From: Actinotalea ferrariae
Lineage (GTDB): Bacteria; Actinomycetota; Actinomycetes; Actinomycetales; Cellulomonadaceae
Reading direction: 5' to 3'
Assembly: GCF_019733465.1 (NCBI RefSeq)
Contig: NZ_JACVQL010000002.1
Span: 1-35,737, forward strand
Length of the DNA: 35,737 nucleotides
Below, piece by piece: positions 6,265 through 35,737 of the stretch; the first letter of the stretch is position 1, and the number at the start of each line of letters is the position of its first letter. The translations under genes were made by a program, and so were the position numbers. The notes below the pieces were generated by a model. It worked only from the letters and a program-made list of their open reading frames with translations. It ran no database searches and was not told the DNA's origin.

Positions 6265-6294
6265 ATCCTACGCCATCCCGGCGCCATCCGTCAC
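6265..6294 (-). promoter_or_regulatory. Putative sigma70-type promoter of the infA operon
   Basis: Minus-strand GTGACG (6289-6294), 18-bp spacer, TAGGAT (6265-6270). It lies 46 bp before the map stop's far side and about 210 bp before infA, so the infA operon can be made independently of secY-adk-map. Confidence 0.55.
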
Positions 6295-6340
6295 CACGGT
6301 GCGGGCCCCCACCAGCACCCCTCGGCCGGAGCCGACGGGC

Positions 6341-7162
6341 TCAGTCCCAGGGCGCGACCTGCACGCCGAGACGGGCGAGCTGCTCCGCGCCGCCGTCGGC
6401 GGCGGTCAGGACCCAGATGCCGTCGGGGCCGATCGCGACGGTGTGCTCCCAGTGCGCGGCACGCGTCCCGTCCTCCGTCACGACGGTCCAGTCGTCCTCG
6501 AGGACCTGGGTCGTGCGGGACCCGCGCGTGAGCATCGGCTCGATGGCGACGCACAGGCCGGGTCGCAGCTTCGGGCTCTTGCCGCGCGCGCGGTAGTTGA
6601 GCACCTCGGGCGGCTGGTGCATCGCGCTGCCGATCCCGTGGCCGACGTACTCCTGCACGATGCCGTACGTGACGGGCGCGGACGCGACGACGTCCTCGAC
6701 GGCCTCGCCGACGACGCCCAGCCGCTCCCCCGTCGCGAGCGCCGCGATACCGGCCCACATGGCTCGTTCCGTGGTGTCGCTCAGGGCGACGTCGGCGGGG
6801 TCCGCGTCGGGCAGCACGACCGTGAAGGCCGCGTCACCGTGCCAGCCGTCCACGATCGCGCCGCAGTCCACGGAGACGACGTCGCCGGGCTCGAGGACGC
6901 GCTCGCCCGGGATCCCGTGCACGATCTCGTCGTTGACCGACACGCAGAGCGTCGCCGGGTAGCCGTGGTACCCGAGGAACGACGGCGTCGCACCGGCGGC
7001 CTCGATGACCCGGGCGGCCACCTCGTCGAGGTCCGCCGTGGTCAGCCCCGGGCGGATCGCCTCGCGGACCGCCGCGTGGGCGTCCGCGACGACCAGGCCG
7101 GCCCGGCGCATCGCCTGGACCTGCTCGCGGGTCTTGTACTCGATCGCGTCGCGGCCGAACAC
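6341..7162 (-). CDS. map: Type I methionine aminopeptidase
   Basis: Removes the initiator methionine from nascent proteins with small second residues, acting at the ribosome exit. It has 273 residues. All five metal ligands are visible: Asp99 (SVDCGA), Asp110 (HGDAAF), His175 (GHGIG), Glu208 (AIEPM) and Glu239 (WEHTV); His82 in EIVHGIP is the usual substrate-contacting residue. The GTG at 7162, 10 nt after the adk stop, is preferred because FGRDAIEYKT starts the family's first helix; upstream codons read through adk in another frame. Cotranscribed with secY and adk. Confidence 0.96.
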   Translation of the reverse strand: MFGRDAIEYKTREQVQAMRRAGLVVADAHAAVREAIRPGLTTADLDEVAARVIEAAGATPSFLGYHGYPATLCVSVNDEIVHGIPGERVLEPGDVVSVDCGAIVDGWHGDAAFTVVLPDADPADVALSDTTERAMWAGIAALATGERLGVVGEAVEDVVASAPVTYGIVQEYVGHGIGSAMHQPPEVLNYRARGKSPKLRPGLCVAIEPMLTRGSRTTQVLEDDWTVVTEDGTRAAHWEHTVAIGPDGIWVLTAADGGAEQLARLGVQVAPWD

Positions 7163-7172
7163 GGTCCAGGCC

Positions 7173-7763
7173 TCAGACCGCGCCGGGCACGGACGCGTCG
7201 TCCAGGGCCGCCACGAGCCGCTCGGTGACCTCGTCGATCGCGCCGATGCCGTCCACACGGACCAGGAGGCCGCGCTCGGCGTAGGCGGTCGTCAGAGGCG
7301 CCGTCTGCTCCGCGTAGATGTCGAGCCGACGGGCGATCGACTCCGGGGTGTCGTCCTCGCGGCCCTCGAGCTCCGCGCGCCTGGCGAGGCGCTCGAGCAG
7401 CACGTCGCGGTCGGCGGTGAGCTCGACGACGGCGTCGAGCGCGACACCGCGATCCGCGAGGATCGCGTCGAGCTCGGTCACCTGGGCGGCGTTGCGCGGG
7501 TACCCGTCGAGGATGAAGCCGCCCTCGACGTCGCCCTGGGCGAGCCGGTCGCGCACCATGTCGTTGGTGACGGAGTCCGGGACGAGGTCGCCACGCGCGG
7601 TGTAGGACTGCGCGAGCACGCCCAGCTCCGTGCCGCCCTTGATGTTCGCCCGGAAGATGTCACCGGTCGAGATCGCGGGCACGCCCAGCCGCTCGGCCAG
7701 GCGGGCCGCCTGGGTGCCCTTGCCGGCACCCTGCGGGCCCATGATCACCAGTCGTGCCGTCAC
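7173..7763 (-). CDS. adk: Adenylate kinase, short-LID form
   Basis: Converts ATP and AMP to two ADP in the cytoplasm. It has 196 residues. The P-loop GPQGAGKGT (9-17), the AMP-binding STGDIFRAN and FILDGYPRN, and RRLDIY with downstream LTTAY are clear. The LID region (RAELEGREDDTPES) is short and lacks the zinc-ribbon cysteines, as in mycobacterial adenylate kinases. The start is GTG at 7763: its GTGA overlaps the secY stop by 4 nt, and GAGGGG lies 8 nt upstream, so translation is likely coupled to secY. Confidence 0.97.
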   Translation of the reverse strand: MTARLVIMGPQGAGKGTQAARLAERLGVPAISTGDIFRANIKGGTELGVLAQSYTARGDLVPDSVTNDMVRDRLAQGDVEGGFILDGYPRNAAQVTELDAILADRGVALDAVVELTADRDVLLERLARRAELEGREDDTPESIARRLDIYAEQTAPLTTAYAERGLLVRVDGIGAIDEVTERLVAALDDASVPGAV

Positions 7764-9055
7764 CTCAGGAACCCCTCGTAGTGCCGCTGCTGGAGCTGCG
7801 ACTCGATCTGCTTCACGGTGTCGAGTCCGACACCCACGACGATGAGGATCGACGCGCCGCCGAACGGGATGTTGGTGCCGACGTCGAGCAGGATGAACGC
7901 GATGAGCGGGATCATCGCGACGAACGCCAGGTACACCGAGCCGGGCGCGGTGATGCGCGAGATCACGTAGTCGAGGTACTCGGCCGTCGGGCGGCCGGCG
8001 CGGATGCCGGGGATGAACCCGCCGTACTTCTTCATGTTGTCCGCGACCTCGTCCGGGTTGAACGTGATCGCCGTGTAGAAGTACGCGAAGAAGATGATGA
8101 GCACGACGTACAGCCCGATGTTGAGCGGTGCTGCCGGGTCGGCGACGTTGACGGAGATCCACTGGACCCAGCCGGCCGTCTGGTCGCCGAACTGCGCGAC
8201 GAGACCGGGGATCGCCAGCAGCGACGACGCGAAGATGACCGGGATGACGCCCGACATGTTGATCTTGATCGGGATGTAGGTGCTCGAGCCGCCGTACATC
8301 TTCCGGCCGACCATCCGCTTGGCGTACTGGACCGGGATGCGCCGCTGGGACTGCTCGACGAAGACGACCAGGCCGATCACGAGCACGATGACGCCGAGCA
8401 CGATGATGAACTTCGTGGCGCCGTTCTCACCGCCGGCGATGGACCACATCGCCGTGGGGAACGTCGCGGCGATCTGGGTGAAGATCAGCAGGGACATGCC
8501 GTTGCCGATGCCCCGCTCGGTGATCTGCTCGCCGAGCCACATGATGATCGCCGTGCCCGCGGTCATGGTGATGATCATCAGGATGATCGTCACGATGCCG
8601 TCCTCGGGGATCACCGGGACGGTGCAGCCCTGGAACAGCAGCCCGTTGCGCGCGACGGTGATGATCGTCGTCGACTGCAGGATCGCGAGGCCGATGGTCA
8701 GGTAGCGCGTGTACTGCGTGAGGCGCGCCGTGCCCGACTGGCCCTCCTGGTGCAGGGCCTCGAAGTGCGGGATCACCACGCGCAGCAGCTGCACGATGAT
8801 GCTCGCCGTGATGTACGGCATGATCCCGAGCGCGAACACGGCGAGCTGGAGCAGCGCGCCGCCGCTGAAGAGGTTGATGAGGCCGAGCAGGTCGTTGGTG
8901 CCCTGCTCCTCGACGCACTGCTGCACGTTGCCGTAGTCGACGCCCGGCGTCGGCAGGAACGAGCCGATCCGGAAGACCGCCATGATCGCGATCGTGAACA
9001 GCAGCTTGCGCCGCAGGTCTGGCGTCCGGAACGCCCGGGCGAATGCGCTGAGCAC
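7760..9055 (-). CDS. secY: Protein translocase subunit SecY
   Basis: Central pore of the SecYEG translocon in the cytoplasmic membrane, with 431 residues and ten predicted transmembrane helices. Recognisable parts are FRTPDLRRKLLFTIAIMAVF (helix 1), the plug region, ITASIIVQLL, the conserved cytosolic IPVQYAKRMVGRKMYGG, and FIPGIRAGRPTAEYLDYVISRI near the C-terminus. The start is GTG at 9055 with AGGAGG close upstream. It leads the secY-adk-map operon, 188 bp after rplO, from which it is separated by a hairpin. Confidence 0.97.
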   Translation of the reverse strand: MLSAFARAFRTPDLRRKLLFTIAIMAVFRIGSFLPTPGVDYGNVQQCVEEQGTNDLLGLINLFSGGALLQLAVFALGIMPYITASIIVQLLRVVIPHFEALHQEGQSGTARLTQYTRYLTIGLAILQSTTIITVARNGLLFQGCTVPVIPEDGIVTIILMIITMTAGTAIIMWLGEQITERGIGNGMSLLIFTQIAATFPTAMWSIAGGENGATKFIIVLGVIVLVIGLVVFVEQSQRRIPVQYAKRMVGRKMYGGSSTYIPIKINMSGVIPVIFASSLLAIPGLVAQFGDQTAGWVQWISVNVADPAAPLNIGLYVVLIIFFAYFYTAITFNPDEVADNMKKYGGFIPGIRAGRPTAEYLDYVISRITAPGSVYLAFVAMIPLIAFILLDVGTNIPFGGASILIVVGVGLDTVKQIESQLQQRHYEGFLR

Positions 9056-9171
9056 CTGTCCTCCTGCTCCGCCCTCGGGCGGTGTGTCGTGTGCCGGTCA
9101 CTCCGGCGTGCGGGTCCCCTCGCCCACGGCGAGGGACGTCGCCCGCACAGGGACGGCGATGACCCCTGCGA

Positions 9172-9177
9172 ACCCTA
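9172..9177 (-). promoter_or_regulatory. Weak candidate -10 (TAGGGT) for secY
   Basis: TAGGGT on the minus strand lies between the hairpin after rplO and the secY GTG. A TTGCGC (9199-9204) is upstream, but the 21-bp spacing is too long, so support is weak. Confidence 0.25.
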
Positions 9178-9204
9178 ACCGAGGTCCGTCCCCGGACGGC
9201 GCAA

Positions 9205-9233
9205 GGGCCGGGTCGCGATGCGCAACCCGGCCC
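9205..9233 (-). terminator. Hairpin terminator after rplO
   Basis: A 9-bp perfect stem (9205-9213 and 9225-9233) extended by an inner gcg/cgc pairing, 10 bp past the rplO stop. No T-tract follows. It separates the ribosomal genes from secY-adk-map. Confidence 0.65.
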
Positions 9234-9243
9234 CTGCCCCTGA

Positions 9244-9936
9244 TCAGTCCTGGGTGATCGTGCCACCGGCGGCGAGGATCTTCTCCGCCGCGGAGGCCGA
9301 CACCTTCTGCACGGAGACCGTGAGCTTGACGCTCACGTCGCCGTCACCGAGCACCTTGACCGGCGCGCCCTTGCGGACGGCACCCTTGGCCACGAGGTCC
9401 TCGACCGTGACGTCGCCACCCTGCGGGTACAGCATGGCGAGCTTGTCCAGGTTGACGACCTGGTACTCCGTGCGGAACGGGTTCTTGAACCCGCGCAGCT
9501 TCGGGAGGCGCATGTGCATGGGCATCTGCCCGCCCTCGAAGCTCTCGGGCACCTGGTAGCGGGCCTTCGAGCCCTTGGTGCCGCGGCCCGCCGTCTTGCC
9601 CTTGGACGCCTCACCACGACCGACACGGGTCTTCGCGGTGTGGGCGCCCGGGGCCGGACGCAGGTGGTGCACCTTGAGCGTGCCACCGGCACCCTCGGAC
9701 GCGGCCGACGCCTTCGAGGCCTTCGCAGGCTTCTCGGCGGCAGCAGCCGACGCCTTGGGCGCCTTGGCCTTGGCGGGCTTGTCGGCCGGCTTCTCGGCCG
9801 CAGCGGCCGTCTCGGCCTTGGTCGCCTTCTTGGGCTTGGTCTCGGCCGCCGGCTTCTCGGCGGCCGCGGCCTTGGTGGACTTCTTCGCGGGCGCCTCGGC
9901 GGCGTCCGTGGTCTTGTCCTTCGCGGTCTCTGCCAT
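9244..9936 (-). CDS. rplO: 50S ribosomal protein uL15 with long Lys/Ala/Pro-rich N-terminal extension
   Basis: Large-subunit assembly protein that binds 23S rRNA. The canonical uL15 core starts near residue 86 ([20 protein letters not shown]), followed by [41 protein letters not shown] and [13 protein letters not shown]. In front is an 85-residue basic, low-complexity region not found in most uL15 proteins. It holds three copies of AAAAEKPA at residues 23-30, 44-51 and 64-71. I use the ATG at 9936; a GTG at 9942 overlapping the rpmD stop is an alternative, and GAGGAGG is 10 nt (ATG) or 4 nt (GTG) away. There is no stop or frameshift between extension and core, so the fusion looks genuine. Confidence 0.95.
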
Positions 9937-9938
9937 GG

Positions 9939-10121
9939 TCACTCGACCTCCTCGACGGCGACCAGGTGGGTCACCGTGGCGACCATGCCGCGGATCTCAG
10001 GACGGTCCTCCTTGACGACGACGTCGCCGATGCGCTTGAGGCCGAGGGTCCGCAGCGTGTCGCGCTGGTTCTGCTTGCCGCCGATGGCGGACTTGGTCTG
10101 GGTCACCTTGAGCCGGGCCAT
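9939..10121 (-). CDS. rpmD: 50S ribosomal protein uL30
   Basis: A 60-residue large-subunit protein. [20 protein letters not shown], then [18 protein letters not shown] and [12 protein letters not shown], match the family. The ATG overlaps the rpsE stop by one base (TGATG), implying coupled translation. The ribosome binding site of rplO lies inside its last codons. Confidence 0.97.
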
Positions 10122-10756
10122 CAGGCACCTGCCTTCGCTGCGAGGCCCTTGGCGCGGGCACGGAGCATCGAGGCCGGGGCGACGTGCTCGACCGACATGC
10201 CGCGGCGTGCCGCGACGGCCTCCGGCTCCTCGAGCCCGCGCAGCGCCGCCACCGTCGCGTGGACGATGTTGATCGCGTTCGTCGAGCCCATGGACTTCGA
10301 GAGCACGTCGTGGATGCCGGCGCACTCGAGCACGGCGCGCACCGGACCACCGGCGATGACACCGGTACCGGGCGACGCGGGACGCAGGAAGACGACACCG
10401 GCGGCGGCCTCACCCGTGATCGGGTGCGGGATTGTGCCCTGGATGCGCGGGACGCGGAAGAAGCTCTTCTTCGCCTCCTCGACACCCTTGGCGATCGCCG
10501 CGGGCACCTCCTTGGCCTTGCCGTAGCCGACGCCGACGGTGCCGTCGCCGTCGCCCACGACGACGAGCGCCGTGAAGCTGAAGCGACGTCCGCCCTTGAC
10601 GACCTTGGACACCCGGTTGATGGTGACCACGCGCTCGACGAAGGCGCTCTTCTCGGCGGCGTCTCCGCGACGCCCGCCGTCACGGCGGCCACCGTCGCGG
10701 CGGTCACCGCCGGCGCCGCCCTGGGCGCCGGTGTTGCTGCGCTGAGGTGCAGCCAT
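10121..10756 (-). CDS. rpsE: 30S ribosomal protein uS5
   Basis: Small-subunit protein at the mRNA entry and decoding region, important for fidelity and the site of spectinomycin-resistance changes. It has 211 residues. The core shows [40 protein letters not shown], and [19 protein letters not shown]. The first 35 residues form a Gly/Arg/Asp-rich tail with RRDGG repeated, encoded by imperfect 15-bp repeats around 10671-10715. The spectinomycin loop ([13 protein letters not shown]) looks wild type. It follows rplR by 43 bp. Confidence 0.97.
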
Positions 10757-10799
10757 CAGTGGTTCCTCTGCTTCCGTACGGACAGGACTCGGGTCGAGG

Positions 10800-11171
10800 T
10801 CACAGGACCAGCCCGCCCTCGCGGGCGCCGTCGGCGACTGCCGCGACCCGCCCGTGGTACTTGTTGCCGCCGCGGTCGAACACGACGGCCTCGACGCCGG
10901 CGGCCTTCGCGCGCTCGGCGATCAGCTCGCCGACGCGGCGGGCCTTGGCGGTCTTGTCACCGTCGAAGCCGCGCAGGTCGGCCTCGAGCGTGGAGGCGGA
11001 GGCCAGCGTGCGGCCCGCCGTGTCGTCGACGACCTGGGCCACCATGTGGCGGCTCGAGCGCGAGACGACGAGGCGCGGACGCACCGGGGTGCCGGAGACC
11101 TTCTTGCGCAGACGCAGGTGGCGACGCGCACGGGCGACGGACTTGCCCTTGCCACGGATCGTGAGTGCCAT
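10800..11171 (-). CDS. rplR: 50S ribosomal protein uL18
   Basis: Binds 5S rRNA with uL5 in the central protuberance. It has 123 residues: a basic N-terminus ([20 protein letters not shown]), then [17 protein letters not shown] and the C-terminal [20 protein letters not shown]. The ATG at 11171 is preferred; a GTG at 11177 overlapping the rplF stop in a GTGA is an alternative that would add two residues. Confidence 0.97.
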
Positions 11172-32538: not shown

Positions 32539-32931
32539 TCACTTGACGGTGACGGTCGCGCCGGCACCCTCGAGCGCGGCGACGGCCTTGTCGGCCGTCT
32601 CCTTGTTGACGCCCTCCAGGACGGCCTTGGGGGCGCCGTCGACGAGGTCCTTGGCCTCCTTGAGGCCCAGGCTCGTGAGGGCGCGCACCTCCTTGATGAC
32701 CTGGATCTTCTTGTCGCCGGCGGCCTCGAGGACGACGTCGAACTCCGTCTTCTCCTCGACCTCCTCGGCGGCAGCGGCGCCGGCGCCACCGGCGGCCGGG
32801 CCGGCCACGGCGACGGGAGCGGCAGCGGTGACCTCGAAGGTCTCCTCGAAGGCCTTCACGAACTCGGAGAGCTCGATGAGCGTGAGCTCCTTGAACGCGT
32901 CGAGGAGCTCCTCGGTGGTGAGCTTCGCCAT
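32539..32931 (-). CDS. rplL: 50S ribosomal protein bL12 (L7/L12)
   Basis: Stalk protein that recruits and activates translational GTPases. It has 130 residues: an N-terminal dimerisation domain ([20 protein letters not shown]), an Ala/Gly/Pro-rich hinge (about 35-60) and the globular C-terminal domain with [20 protein letters not shown] and [20 protein letters not shown]. The ATG at 32931 follows rplJ by 99 bp, a spacing that allows the extra translation needed for multiple copies per ribosome. Confidence 0.98.
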
Positions 32932-33030: not shown

Positions 33031-33561
33031 TCAGGCCGCCTGCTCCTCGGTCGCCCGCTTCTCGCGCAGGGCATCGATGGTGCGCACGGCCTTGGCCGTG
33101 GGCGCGGTGAACAGGTACGCCGCCCCGAAGAGCGACGCCTTCATGGCGCCGGCCAGCTTGGCCAGCAGGACCTCGCGGGACTCGAGGTCCGCGAGCTTCG
33201 TGATGTCCGCAGCGCTCAGGGAGCGTCCGTCGAGGACACCGCCCTTGATGACGAGCTGCGGGTTGGCCTTGGCGAAGTCACGCAGGCCCTTGGCCGCCTC
33301 GACCGGGTCACCGGTCACGAAGGCGACGGCCGAGGGGCCGGCGAGCTGGTCGTCGGCGATCTCGACGCCAGCCTGCTTGGCCGCGATGGCGGACAGCGTG
33401 TTCTTCACCACGGCGTAGGTTGCGTTGCCGCTGAGCGCGCGACGCAGCTGCTTGAGCTGCGCGACGGTGAGCCCGCGGTACTCGGTCAGCACGACGGCGT
33501 TCGAGTCACGGAACTGGTCCGAGAGCTCGGCTACCGCGGCTGCCTTGTCCGGCCTCGCCAT
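33031..33561 (-). CDS. rplJ: 50S ribosomal protein uL10
   Basis: Stalk base protein that anchors bL12 dimers on its C-terminal helix. It has 176 residues. [40 protein letters not shown], and [14 protein letters not shown] match the rRNA-binding domain; the C-terminal helix ends [19 protein letters not shown]. The ATG at 33561 has GGAAGGA 5 nt upstream. A long leader with a hairpin precedes it; uL10-L12 feedback on such leaders is known in other bacteria. Confidence 0.98.
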
Positions 33562-33847: not shown

Positions 33848-33893
33848 ATCGCGTGTCACACCGGGGTCCGGTGCGCTCTCCTGAGGGGGTGGA

Positions 33894-33911: not shown

Positions 33912-33937
33912 CGGGGGACCACAGGAGCGTCACCGCC

Positions 33938-34762
33938 ATGACCGTACTGCTCACCGACCGGCCGTCCGCGCGCCTGGCGCCGGTCGACCTCGCCCGCTGG
34001 CTCGCCGACCGGTGCGCCGACGACCCCGACGCCCCTGGTCCCGGTGTCGCGCGCGTGCCCTTCCCCCACGTCGACCCCGCGCGCACGGGCCGCGGTGCAC
34101 GGGTCGCCCTGCTCGACGGCGTGGTCGACGTCGAGCACCCGGACCTGCGCGGGGCGCTCCTGAGCGACCTCTCGAGCCGCTCGGCCGGTGCGCCGTCGCC
34201 CCTCGCGACCGCGCACGCGTCCCTCCTCGTCGGCCAGGGCGTCCGCGACGTGCGGGGACTCGTGCCGGACGCCCGGCTGCTCGTCGCCCCCGTGCTCACG
34301 CCCGGCGGGTTCACGAGCGACGAGCTGCTGGTCCGCGCGGTCCGCCGGGTCGTCGCCGAGGGCGCGGAGGTGCTCGTGCTGCCGTTCGGCCGGCGCCGGC
34401 TCGGCCGCCGCGTCGCGATGGTCCTGCGCGGGGTGACCGAGCGCGGCGTCCGCGTGGTCGTCGCGGCGGGCGACCTCGGTCCCGACGTCCTCGCCTTCCC
34501 CGCGTCGGTCGCCGGGGTCCTCGCCGTGACCGCGCACGACGGCGACGGGGTCCTCCCCGCGTGCAGCGCTCGGGCGGACCTGTCGGCGCCCGGTCGCGAC
34601 GTCCCGGCGTCCGGTCCGGCGGGCCGGCTCCTCCTCGAGGGGTCCTCAGCCGCCGCGGTGCTCGCGGCCGGGGCGGTCGTCGCCGGCGTCGGCGTCGGTC
34701 TCGGGCACGGCGACGACGAGCGGCGCGAAGCACGTGAGGGGCACCGGCTCGTCGAGCCCTGA
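33938..34762 (+). CDS. Small subtilisin-fold (S8-like) serine protease, no signal peptide
   Basis: A 274-residue protein recognisable as a compact, diverged S8 subtilase. Motifs in order: VALLDGVVDVEHPDLRG with the likely catalytic Asp60; ATAHASLLVGQ with His93; VVVAAGDLG followed by AFPASVAGVLAVTA, which matches the AAGN...YPAS...IAVGA segment, but with Asp179 in place of the oxyanion-hole Asn; and EGSSAAAVLAAG with the likely nucleophile Ser237. The triad therefore looks complete while the flanking consensus (DTG, HGTHVAG, GTSMAxP) is eroded. No signal peptide, propeptide or transmembrane segment is evident, so it probably acts in the cytoplasm. Its ATG is preceded by CAGGAG at 10 nt. The 3' end overlaps the convergent CHAT gene by 117 bp. 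It could be active, weakly active or a substrate-binding pseudoenzyme. Confidence 0.8.
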   Translation: MTVLLTDRPSARLAPVDLARWLADRCADDPDAPGPGVARVPFPHVDPARTGRGARVALLDGVVDVEHPDLRGALLSDLSSRSAGAPSPLATAHASLLVGQGVRDVRGLVPDARLLVAPVLTPGGFTSDELLVRAVRRVVAEGAEVLVLPFGRRRLGRRVAMVLRGVTERGVRVVVAAGDLGPDVLAFPASVAGVLAVTAHDGDGVLPACSARADLSAPGRDVPASGPAGRLLLEGSSAAAVLAAGAVVAGVGVGLGHGDDERREAREGHRLVEP

Positions 34763-35737
34763 GCACGCCGCCGCGAGCGCAGCGTCCGGGCTCGCGCCCC
34801 GACGGACGAGGACGTGCAGCGTGGGCATGACCCGGGCGGCGACGTCGTCGCGCAGCGGCGCGAGCGACGCGACGACCGCGCCCGCGCCGAGCCGCAGGAG
34901 CACGCTCGCGAGCCCGAGCACCTCGCCGCCGGGTCGCACCGAGGCGCGGCCGACCTCGCACGCCGAGAGCACGACGAACGAGCCGGGCAGCACGGCGCCC
35001 TCGAGCTCGTGGGCGAAGAGCGGCCCGTCCGCGAGCCGCACCCAGGAGAACAGCGGGTTGTCCGTCTCGTGGTGGCCGTGGGCGGCGAGGTGCACGACGT
35101 CGGCCGTGCGCAGCGCGTCGGCGGCCGCGGACGTCGTCGCCGCCTCGCCGAGAAGGAGCCGCGCGTCGGGCCACGTGGCGGCCACCACCTCGGCCTCGGC
35201 CCGCGCGTGGCCGAGCCCCGGACCGGCCAGCACGACGGCGGCCGAGCCCCGCGCACGGACGGGCGCCAGTTGGAGCCGCGGGCTGACGCTCGTCGGCAGC
35301 CCCGCACGCGAGGGCACCAGCCCCCACGGCAGCGTCACGAGCGCACCGCCGGCGACGACGTGCAGCGGGCCGGGCGCGCCGAGCGGACGCACGAGGAGCT
35401 CGTCGAGCCGTCCGAGACCGCGCGCGAGCGAACGGCGCACGCCGTCGCGCAGCGGGATCGGGAGCACGGGGTTCGCGAGCACCTGGAGGTCGGCACGCAG
35501 CCGCCGCGTGAGCTCGTCGACGCTCGCCACGGGCGCGAGGTCCACGAGGCGCAGCCCCGCGGCGTCGGCCACCACGGCGTGCACCCGTCCCTGGTGCGCG
35601 ACGAGGTCGGCCACCGTGGCGCCGGGTGGCGCGGAGGGCCGGCGCGACGCCACCCCGGAGCCGGTCACGCCCGCCGACGGTGATGCCCGTCGGCCCGGGC
35701 GCAGGACGCGCACGAGCTCGCGCGCGGTCACCGGCCG
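34646..35737 (-). CDS. CHAT-domain (caspase-like) protease, 5' end probably beyond the window
   Basis: CHAT domains are clan CD cysteine peptidases related to caspases and separase. The visible 361 or more residues include the domain's hallmarks: LVTLPWGLVP, then VVHLAAHG with catalytic His (the second His, about 218 counting from a GTG at 35731), NPLFSWVRLADGPLFAHEL, and VVLSACEVG with the nucleophile Cys at about 258, followed by GGEVLGLASVLLRLGAGAVV. Both catalytic residues are intact. The C-terminal strand CFAPLVVAVPE is followed by a short Asp/Gly/Arg tail. The frame has no stop before the window end and family members usually carry N-terminal TPR or similar sensor repeats, so the protein is probably longer; the GTG at 35731 is only a possible start. 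It converges on and overlaps the S8-like gene, which suggests a linked function. Confidence 0.85.
   Translation of the reverse strand, partial: RPVTARELVRVLRPGRRASPSAGVTGSGVASRRPSAPPGATVADLVAHQGRVHAVVADAAGLRLVDLAPVASVDELTRRLRADLQVLANPVLPIPLRDGVRRSLARGLGRLDELLVRPLGAPGPLHVVAGGALVTLPWGLVPSRAGLPTSVSPRLQLAPVRARGSAAVVLAGPGLGHARAEAEVVAATWPDARLLLGEAATTSAAADALRTADVVHLAAHGHHETDNPLFSWVRLADGPLFAHELEGAVLPGSFVVLSACEVGRASVRPGGEVLGLASVLLRLGAGAVVASLAPLRDDVAARVMPTLHVLVRRGASPDAALAAACSGLDEPVPLTCFAPLVVAVPETDADAGDDRPGREHRGG

Follow-up and report, generated by a model that had tools for sequence, protein, structure and literature searches.

A probable pseudo-subtilase restricted to one Actinotalea clade adjoins a sigma factor/protease module of ECF54-like gene context and shares a promoter-like motif with it

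The window analyzed in the present work is a stretch of 35,737 nucleotides from Actinotalea ferrariae, comprising the whole of contig C112 of the source genome assembly, and our analyses centre on two genes at its end, viz. one for a subtilisin-like protein (termed S8m here) and one for the C-terminal part of a CHAT protease with tetratricopeptide-like repeats (TPR-CHAT). In the reading favoured here, this part of the window is the end of a sigma factor/protease module, ECF54-like by its gene context, to which S8m, most likely a pseudo-subtilase, has been added as an accessory in a single clade. A promoter-like motif precedes both S8m and the gene for the module's extracytoplasmic function (ECF) sigma factor, and this sharing, along with the presence of the sigma factor, suggests that transcription is controlled through regulated proteolysis. 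We judge the chances of this reading, taken together with the full signalling model set out below, to be evenly balanced. A first-pass annotation of the same DNA had proposed that two diverged, probably cytoplasmic proteases of different catalytic classes could form a proteolytic relay; its observation is partly confirmed and its interpretation partly supported by the comparisons described here.

Both open reading frames (ORFs) are found where the first-pass annotation had placed them, tail to tail beside rplJ and rplL (Table 1), and the convergent ends of the two frames overlap in 5 of the 9 orthologous loci. The CHAT ORF matches the Pfam CHAT model (E = 3.5e-24, 86.2 bits, cut-off 24) and, as had been claimed for it, retains in the window both catalytic residues, viz. 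the His of HLAAHG and the Cys of SACEVG; the catalytic His and Cys are likewise present in all 25 of the CHAT homologues that pass an E value of 1e-20. A CHAT profile searched against the PDB retrieved 5 distinct sequences at E <= 0.01 (best E 0.0043), all of them named 'CHAT domain protein', which we take to be Craspase entries. S8m matches Pfam Peptidase_S8 (PF00082; E = 4.1e-10, 39.9 bits, gathering cut-off 21.8), and the view that it carries no signal peptide is upheld by a crude test, in which the first 48 residues contain no hydrophobic N-terminus (best 19-residue Kyte-Doolittle mean 0.5).

In related genomes the genes are arranged in the order rplK-rplA, sigma factor, sml (a small protein of ~165 amino acids (aa)), S8L (a second subtilisin-like protein of 560–610 aa) and TPR-CHAT, followed on the opposite strand by S8m and then by rplJ. 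In the source genome the sigma factor, sml, S8L and the N-terminus of the CHAT protein are located on the 4-kb contig C423. Strong S8m matches are present in 9 of the 19 genomes of the genus, and again in 9 of the 200 genomes of the family; the 9 of the genus are the very ones in which a CHAT gene is linked to rplJ, and in all 9 S8m adjoins both the CHAT gene and rplJ, a co-occurrence that supports the first-pass interpretation. Three of the relatives referred to below by locus (L003, L004, and L006, which are genomes G007, G014, and G016 and were counted once) belong to Actinotalea, family Cellulomonadaceae. The predicted partners are also present, viz. a sigma factor, which in L004 scores 56.5 bits against TIGR02937 (cut-off 42.9), and repeats resembling TPRs, whose Pfam matches are sub-threshold (17.9 bits vs 30.1). 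The L004 S8L protein scores 52.7 bits against the Pfam subtilase model. The Asp/His/Asn/Ser set is complete in 18 of the 19 aligned S8L sequences, the Asp region of the 19th (L087) being unaligned, and weaker S8L matches (L092 and L095) that fell below threshold were left out of this active-site count. A subtilase-CHAT partnership does exist, but its usual subtilase is S8L, encoded upstream of CHAT and off the window, and not S8m, which is probably not an intact protease.

Of the 200 family genomes, 123 carry sml, at 127 loci in total and with a single match in 119 of these 123, and a CHAT gene lies downstream of it on the same strand at no fewer than 114 of the 127 loci. S8L stands between the two genes at 87 of these 114 loci, and at the other 27 CHAT follows sml directly (within 300 base pairs (bp)). 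This co-location count was made from 127 sml rows, 90 of 94 S8L rows (both pieces from G013 and the second pieces from G008 and G149 were dropped) and 118 CHAT rows, 117 of them from the family search and one for the N-terminal CHAT piece on G000:C423. CHAT rows that were weaker, partial or second copies did not enter the count, and the figure of 114 is a lower bound. In the class as a whole, 68 of 394 genomes have an sml match at E <= 1e-6. At 20 loci chosen by their sml match, which were hand-picked and not random (15 from the 72 class-search rows, strong and weaker, outside the family, and 5 from the family), the sigma factor adjoins sml in every case (20/20), a CHAT gene accompanies them at 16, and 13 have S8L-like matches, 11 of which exceed 200 bits. 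On these counts, sigma and sml are the constant pair of the module, CHAT is its usual protease, S8L is an optional second one and S8m is an addition of the clade. In four of the loci (L086, L090, L091, and L096) the sigma-sml pair has no CHAT or S8L profile match within the fetched stretch, which suggests that the pair may also work alone or with other partners.

Several features of the module differ between lineages. Two tandem CHAT genes follow the module in genus group g7 (G091:C11:619281-624575 and at least 11 more genomes) and also in G020 and G044 (group g3). A tandem repeat of hexapeptides (HPYTES x10, HPFTDP, HPLTDP, HPYTQP and others), the sequence and copy number of which are lineage-specific, separates the N-terminal part of S8L from its subtilase domain (L017:5469-7301; L056:454-2169; L003:6584-8248). 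The S8L and CHAT frames of L005 (Paraoerskovia) overlap by ~436 bp (6282-8780 and 8345-10957), possibly due to a frameshift or an unusual arrangement. A diverged sigma-sml-S8L-CHAT copy without S8m or the motif is located elsewhere in another genome (L022; G002:C3), in which rplJ lies ~130 kb away.

The co-regulation of S8m with the module is suggested by a motif of the general form GTCAC[ACG]-N16/17-CTC[CT]. It is present as GTCACA-N16(17)-CTC(C/T) on the 5' side of S8m in 9 of 9 genomes, and as GTCAC[ACG]-N16-CTCC on the 5' side of the sigma factor gene, also in 9 of 9; the boxes are constant and the spacer sequences vary. By Markov simulation, the motif is expected by chance 0.082 times per kb, both strands counted. 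Within 500 bases on the upstream side of rplJ, in the divergent orientation, it occurs at all 9 loci that contain S8m and at none of the 15 loci without S8m (9 from genomes of the genus, 6 others). In its strict form, the motif has 13 matches in 19 whole genomes vs 1 for a reversed control, and 7 of these matches belong to the module; in G008, which is one contig of 4.5 Mb, and in G018, the promoters of the sigma factor and of S8m are the only two strict matches. We infer that the motif is the promoter recognized by the module's own sigma factor, which probably activates S8m as well.

Two of the 6 strict matches located away from the module (G000 and G007) precede orthologous M66-like proteins of 723–729 aa, which are 80% identical over 725 columns, match Peptidase_M66 and contain a sequence resembling a zinc site, HEAGHAAGL[AP]H. 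The genes for these proteins (L145:2543-4729 and L146:2507-4675) have different upstream genes in the two genomes, and the L145 protein has no obvious hydrophobic N-terminus. A further strict match, in G014, precedes a protein of 146 aa (L147:8572-9009, minus strand) that has no Pfam match.

The role of sml is central to the interpretation of the module. Its predicted structure consists of helices within residues 18–64 (predicted local distance difference test (pLDDT) values of about 35–68) and a beta-sandwich at residues 81–152 (about 78–93), and its sequence gives a Pfam CarboxypepD_reg match that is below the cut-off (E 0.0092, 16.7 bits vs 32.3). Because of this fold, and because the sigma factor stands beside sml even where the proteases are missing, a soluble anti-sigma factor fits sml better than an adaptor. 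In an alternative that we consider unlikely, S8L and TPR-CHAT would normally degrade the ECF sigma factor itself, and sml would be an adaptor or sensor; this is the reading put forward in the ECF54 review (PMC8999054), which reports a proposal of proteolytic control with no anti-sigma factor. However, the sigma factor adjoins sml at 20 of 20 loci, the four without CHAT or S8L profile matches included, and such constancy would be expected if sml were an inhibitor or partner dedicated to the sigma factor.

With sml as the anti-sigma factor, the signalling model that we favour is as follows. The sml protein would keep the ECF sigma factor inactive until a cytoplasmic signal switches TPR-CHAT through its repeat part; TPR-CHAT, alone or with S8L, would then cleave sml, and the freed sigma factor would transcribe from promoters resembling GTCACA-N16/17-CTCCTGA. 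These promoters would serve its own operon as well as S8m and, in at least 2 genomes, the gene for the M66-like peptidase. S8m would accordingly be made when the system fires, and would most likely bind a partner in the module (S8L, sml or CHAT) and tune or end the response; this partner binding and feedback, argued from analogy, is the least supported step. The cleavage of sml is favoured due to the evidence on sml given above and the precedent of Craspase, in which Csx29 cleaves Csx30 (PMC10028731). The more specific proposal that the module is a chromosomal, non-CRISPR counterpart of Craspase, in which TPR-CHAT and a subtilase jointly process sml as an anti-sigma factor, S8m, induced in one clade, feeds back on this pair, and the M66-like peptidase is an output, is put forward tentatively, as a rather unlikely possibility.

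A number of observations weigh against this model. Three of the 6 strict motif matches away from the module look like chance (those in G004 and G010, which have no module, and that on G000:C422), the motif at up to 2 mismatches is not above control, no motif was found on the 5' side of the sigma factor gene in L082-L101, L005 or L022, and the promoters used to derive the motif are those in which it is counted. No match of sml to a known anti-sigma family was obtained by sequence or fold in Pfam and PDB searches, and the helical part of sml is modelled at low confidence. The CHAT gene of the source genome is split over two contigs, and its middle was not found in the assembly.

The first-pass annotation had held that S8m keeps Asp60, His93 and Ser237 as its catalytic residues. 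Asp60 and Ser237 are present in the window protein at the positions of the catalytic Asp and Ser, but His93 is not confirmed as the catalytic His. When an S8m profile is aligned with three subtilases of solved structure (PagA, PatA and thermitase; E values between 7e-25 and 9e-22), the position of the catalytic His is occupied by Leu89, His93 being four residues further on, and the same assignment is given by a single-sequence alignment and by hhalign against S8L; the oxyanion-hole Asn is replaced by Asp179. Among proteins of solved structure, those nearest to S8m in sequence are the cyanobactin proteases PatA and PagA (E 7e-25 to 2e-24), enzymes that are active in peptide maturation clusters. 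In our alignments they carry an HGTH motif. Across the 9 S8m orthologues, the Asp is retained in 4, the Ser in 2, the oxyanion Asn in 1 and a His at column 89 in 1, and the profile alignments place Asp, His and Ser together in none of the 9. S8m is therefore most likely a pseudo-subtilase. At the level of sequence the triad is not assembled, and the AlphaFold model of S8m (mean pLDDT 42.8) is too poor for its geometry to be judged.

That S8m is instead weakly active or re-wired in the lineage of the window, using Asp60, Ser237 and the nearby His93, so that a two-protease relay holds there, we consider quite unlikely. All three residues are present in the window and in L003, its nearest relative, and in 3 of 3 runs a MAFFT alignment of mixed S8m and S8L sequences sets His93 in the His column, on which reading the Asp, His and Ser are complete in just these 2 of the 9 orthologues. 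This placement is trusted less because the same runs oppose the Thr of 7 of 8 S8L rows to Asp60 (3/3 runs) and misplace the Ser in 2 of 3, whereas the three profile and pairwise alignments agree on Leu89. The replacement of the oxyanion Asn and the loss of the Ser in the other 7 of 9 orthologues, even though the ratio of nonsynonymous to synonymous substitution rates (dN/dS) is below 1, also speak against activity. Against the assignment of S8m as a pseudo-subtilase are the retention of Asp with Ser in 2 of the 9 orthologues and of Asp, His and Asn in L006, and a weak or altered activity may exist.

The S8m orthologues in the 8 further genomes are 48–68% identical to the window protein, the frame is open in all 9 and 58 columns are invariant. 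Compared with the window by the Nei-Gojobori method, S8m has dN/dS values of 0.39 for the nearest relative and 0.43–0.68 for the other seven, values which include the codons overlapping the CHAT gene (39 in the window); in each of these 8 pairs the value for S8m is above that for the CHAT part. The S8m and rpoB trees yield the same groups, and the simplest history of S8m is therefore a single origin followed by vertical inheritance within one Actinotalea clade.

This history bears on a further alternative, a poor prospect in our estimation, in which the module serves conflict or programmed death, CHAT and S8L disabling or killing the cell upon infection and the sigma factor just driving their expression. 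There are weak PADLOC matches that would suit it (for S8m, to a subtilase at 9.4e-05 and IetS at 0.0027; for CHAT, to BovA at 9.4e-04), and the CHAT protein has a weak match to Csx29 (3.3e-05, 22.9 bits vs a cut-off of 300). However, the module has a fixed site beside rplJ in the 9 Actinotalea genomes, rplJ is also within the fetched stretch in L005 and L097-L101, S8m appears to be vertically inherited, and most sml-carrying genomes have only the one match; no toxin or phage-sensor gene was recognized beside the module, where no systematic search for such genes was made. Lastly, it is very improbable that S8m is a decaying, functionless remnant of a once active subtilase, as the loss of its catalytic residues in many combinations and its dN/dS above that of the CHAT part might suggest, since its frame is open throughout, its invariant columns and dN/dS below 1 argue otherwise, and its promoter motif is kept in 9 of 9 genomes while the spacer drifts.

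Table 1. Features at the end of the window (coordinates are positions in the 35,737-nucleotide stretch)
Feature	Position	Strand	Basis
S8m, subtilisin-like protein of 274 aa, probable pseudo-subtilase	33938..34762	+	ORF, Pfam, alignments
TPR-CHAT protease, C-terminal 363 aa; N-terminus beyond contig end	34646..35737	-	ORF, Pfam
Overlap of S8m and CHAT coding sequences, tail to tail, 117 bp	34646..34762	.	ORF positions
ECF-type promoter-like motif GTCACA-N17-CTCCTGA, 53 bases 5' of the S8m ATG	33855..33884	+	Comparison with sigma operon of relatives
Possible ribosome-binding site AGGAG 5' of the S8m ATG	33923..33927	+	Sequence reading (putative)
rplJ (L10), conserved neighbour, divergent from S8m	33031..33561	-	ORF/neighbourhood
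rplL (L7/L12), context	32539..32931	-	ORF/neighbourhood

The sigma factor/protease module is of a kind that is already known, because the accessible part of the ECF54 review describes actinobacterial ECF54 sigma factors flanked by conserved carboxypeptidase, subtilase and CHAT genes (PMC8999054). The module studied here likewise brings an ECF sigma factor together with subtilase and CHAT genes, and sml may correspond to the carboxypeptidase-related protein, its CarboxypepD_reg match being below the cut-off. For ECF54 a regulation by proteolysis has been proposed from gene context alone, and the relevant part of that review assumes no anti-sigma factor and says nothing of a pseudo-subtilase or of a promoter motif common to the genes (PMC8999054). 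In the literature that we searched, no report was found of the S8m pseudo-subtilase or its co-regulation, of an anti-sigma role for sml, of the shared motif, or of a motif-preceded M66-like gene. The present locus offers a putative anti-sigma factor, two proteases whose active-site residues are intact, a promoter candidate and a putatively co-regulated pseudo-protease, and with these components in hand the pathway becomes accessible to reporter assays.

Two other known systems are informative for understanding the module. CspC and CspA of Clostridioides difficile are described as pseudoproteases that bind partners in signalling (PMC12880746, accessible part), and they resemble S8m in being subtilisin-like proteins that have lost catalysis and themselves act as soluble partners in signalling, a role that S8m may share by analogy; they differ in serving spore germination and in having no sigma/CHAT module. 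Craspase, of type III-E CRISPR systems, has a TPR-CHAT protease (Csx29) that cleaves Csx30, the inhibitor of an ECF-like sigma factor (CASP-sigma), according to the part of the source consulted (PMC10028731), and in common with the present module it combines a TPR-CHAT protease (with TPR matches that are sub-threshold in the present case) with an ECF-like sigma factor and a further small protein. Unlike in Craspase, the small protein sml is not recognizable as Csx30 and the module has an additional subtilase; no CRISPR gene was recognized beside the module, where cas genes were not looked for systematically. If the proposed model is correct, caspase-like proteases would control transcription outside of CRISPR systems, and a soluble anti-sigma factor would exist where the ECF54 review literature, in its accessible part, assumes none.
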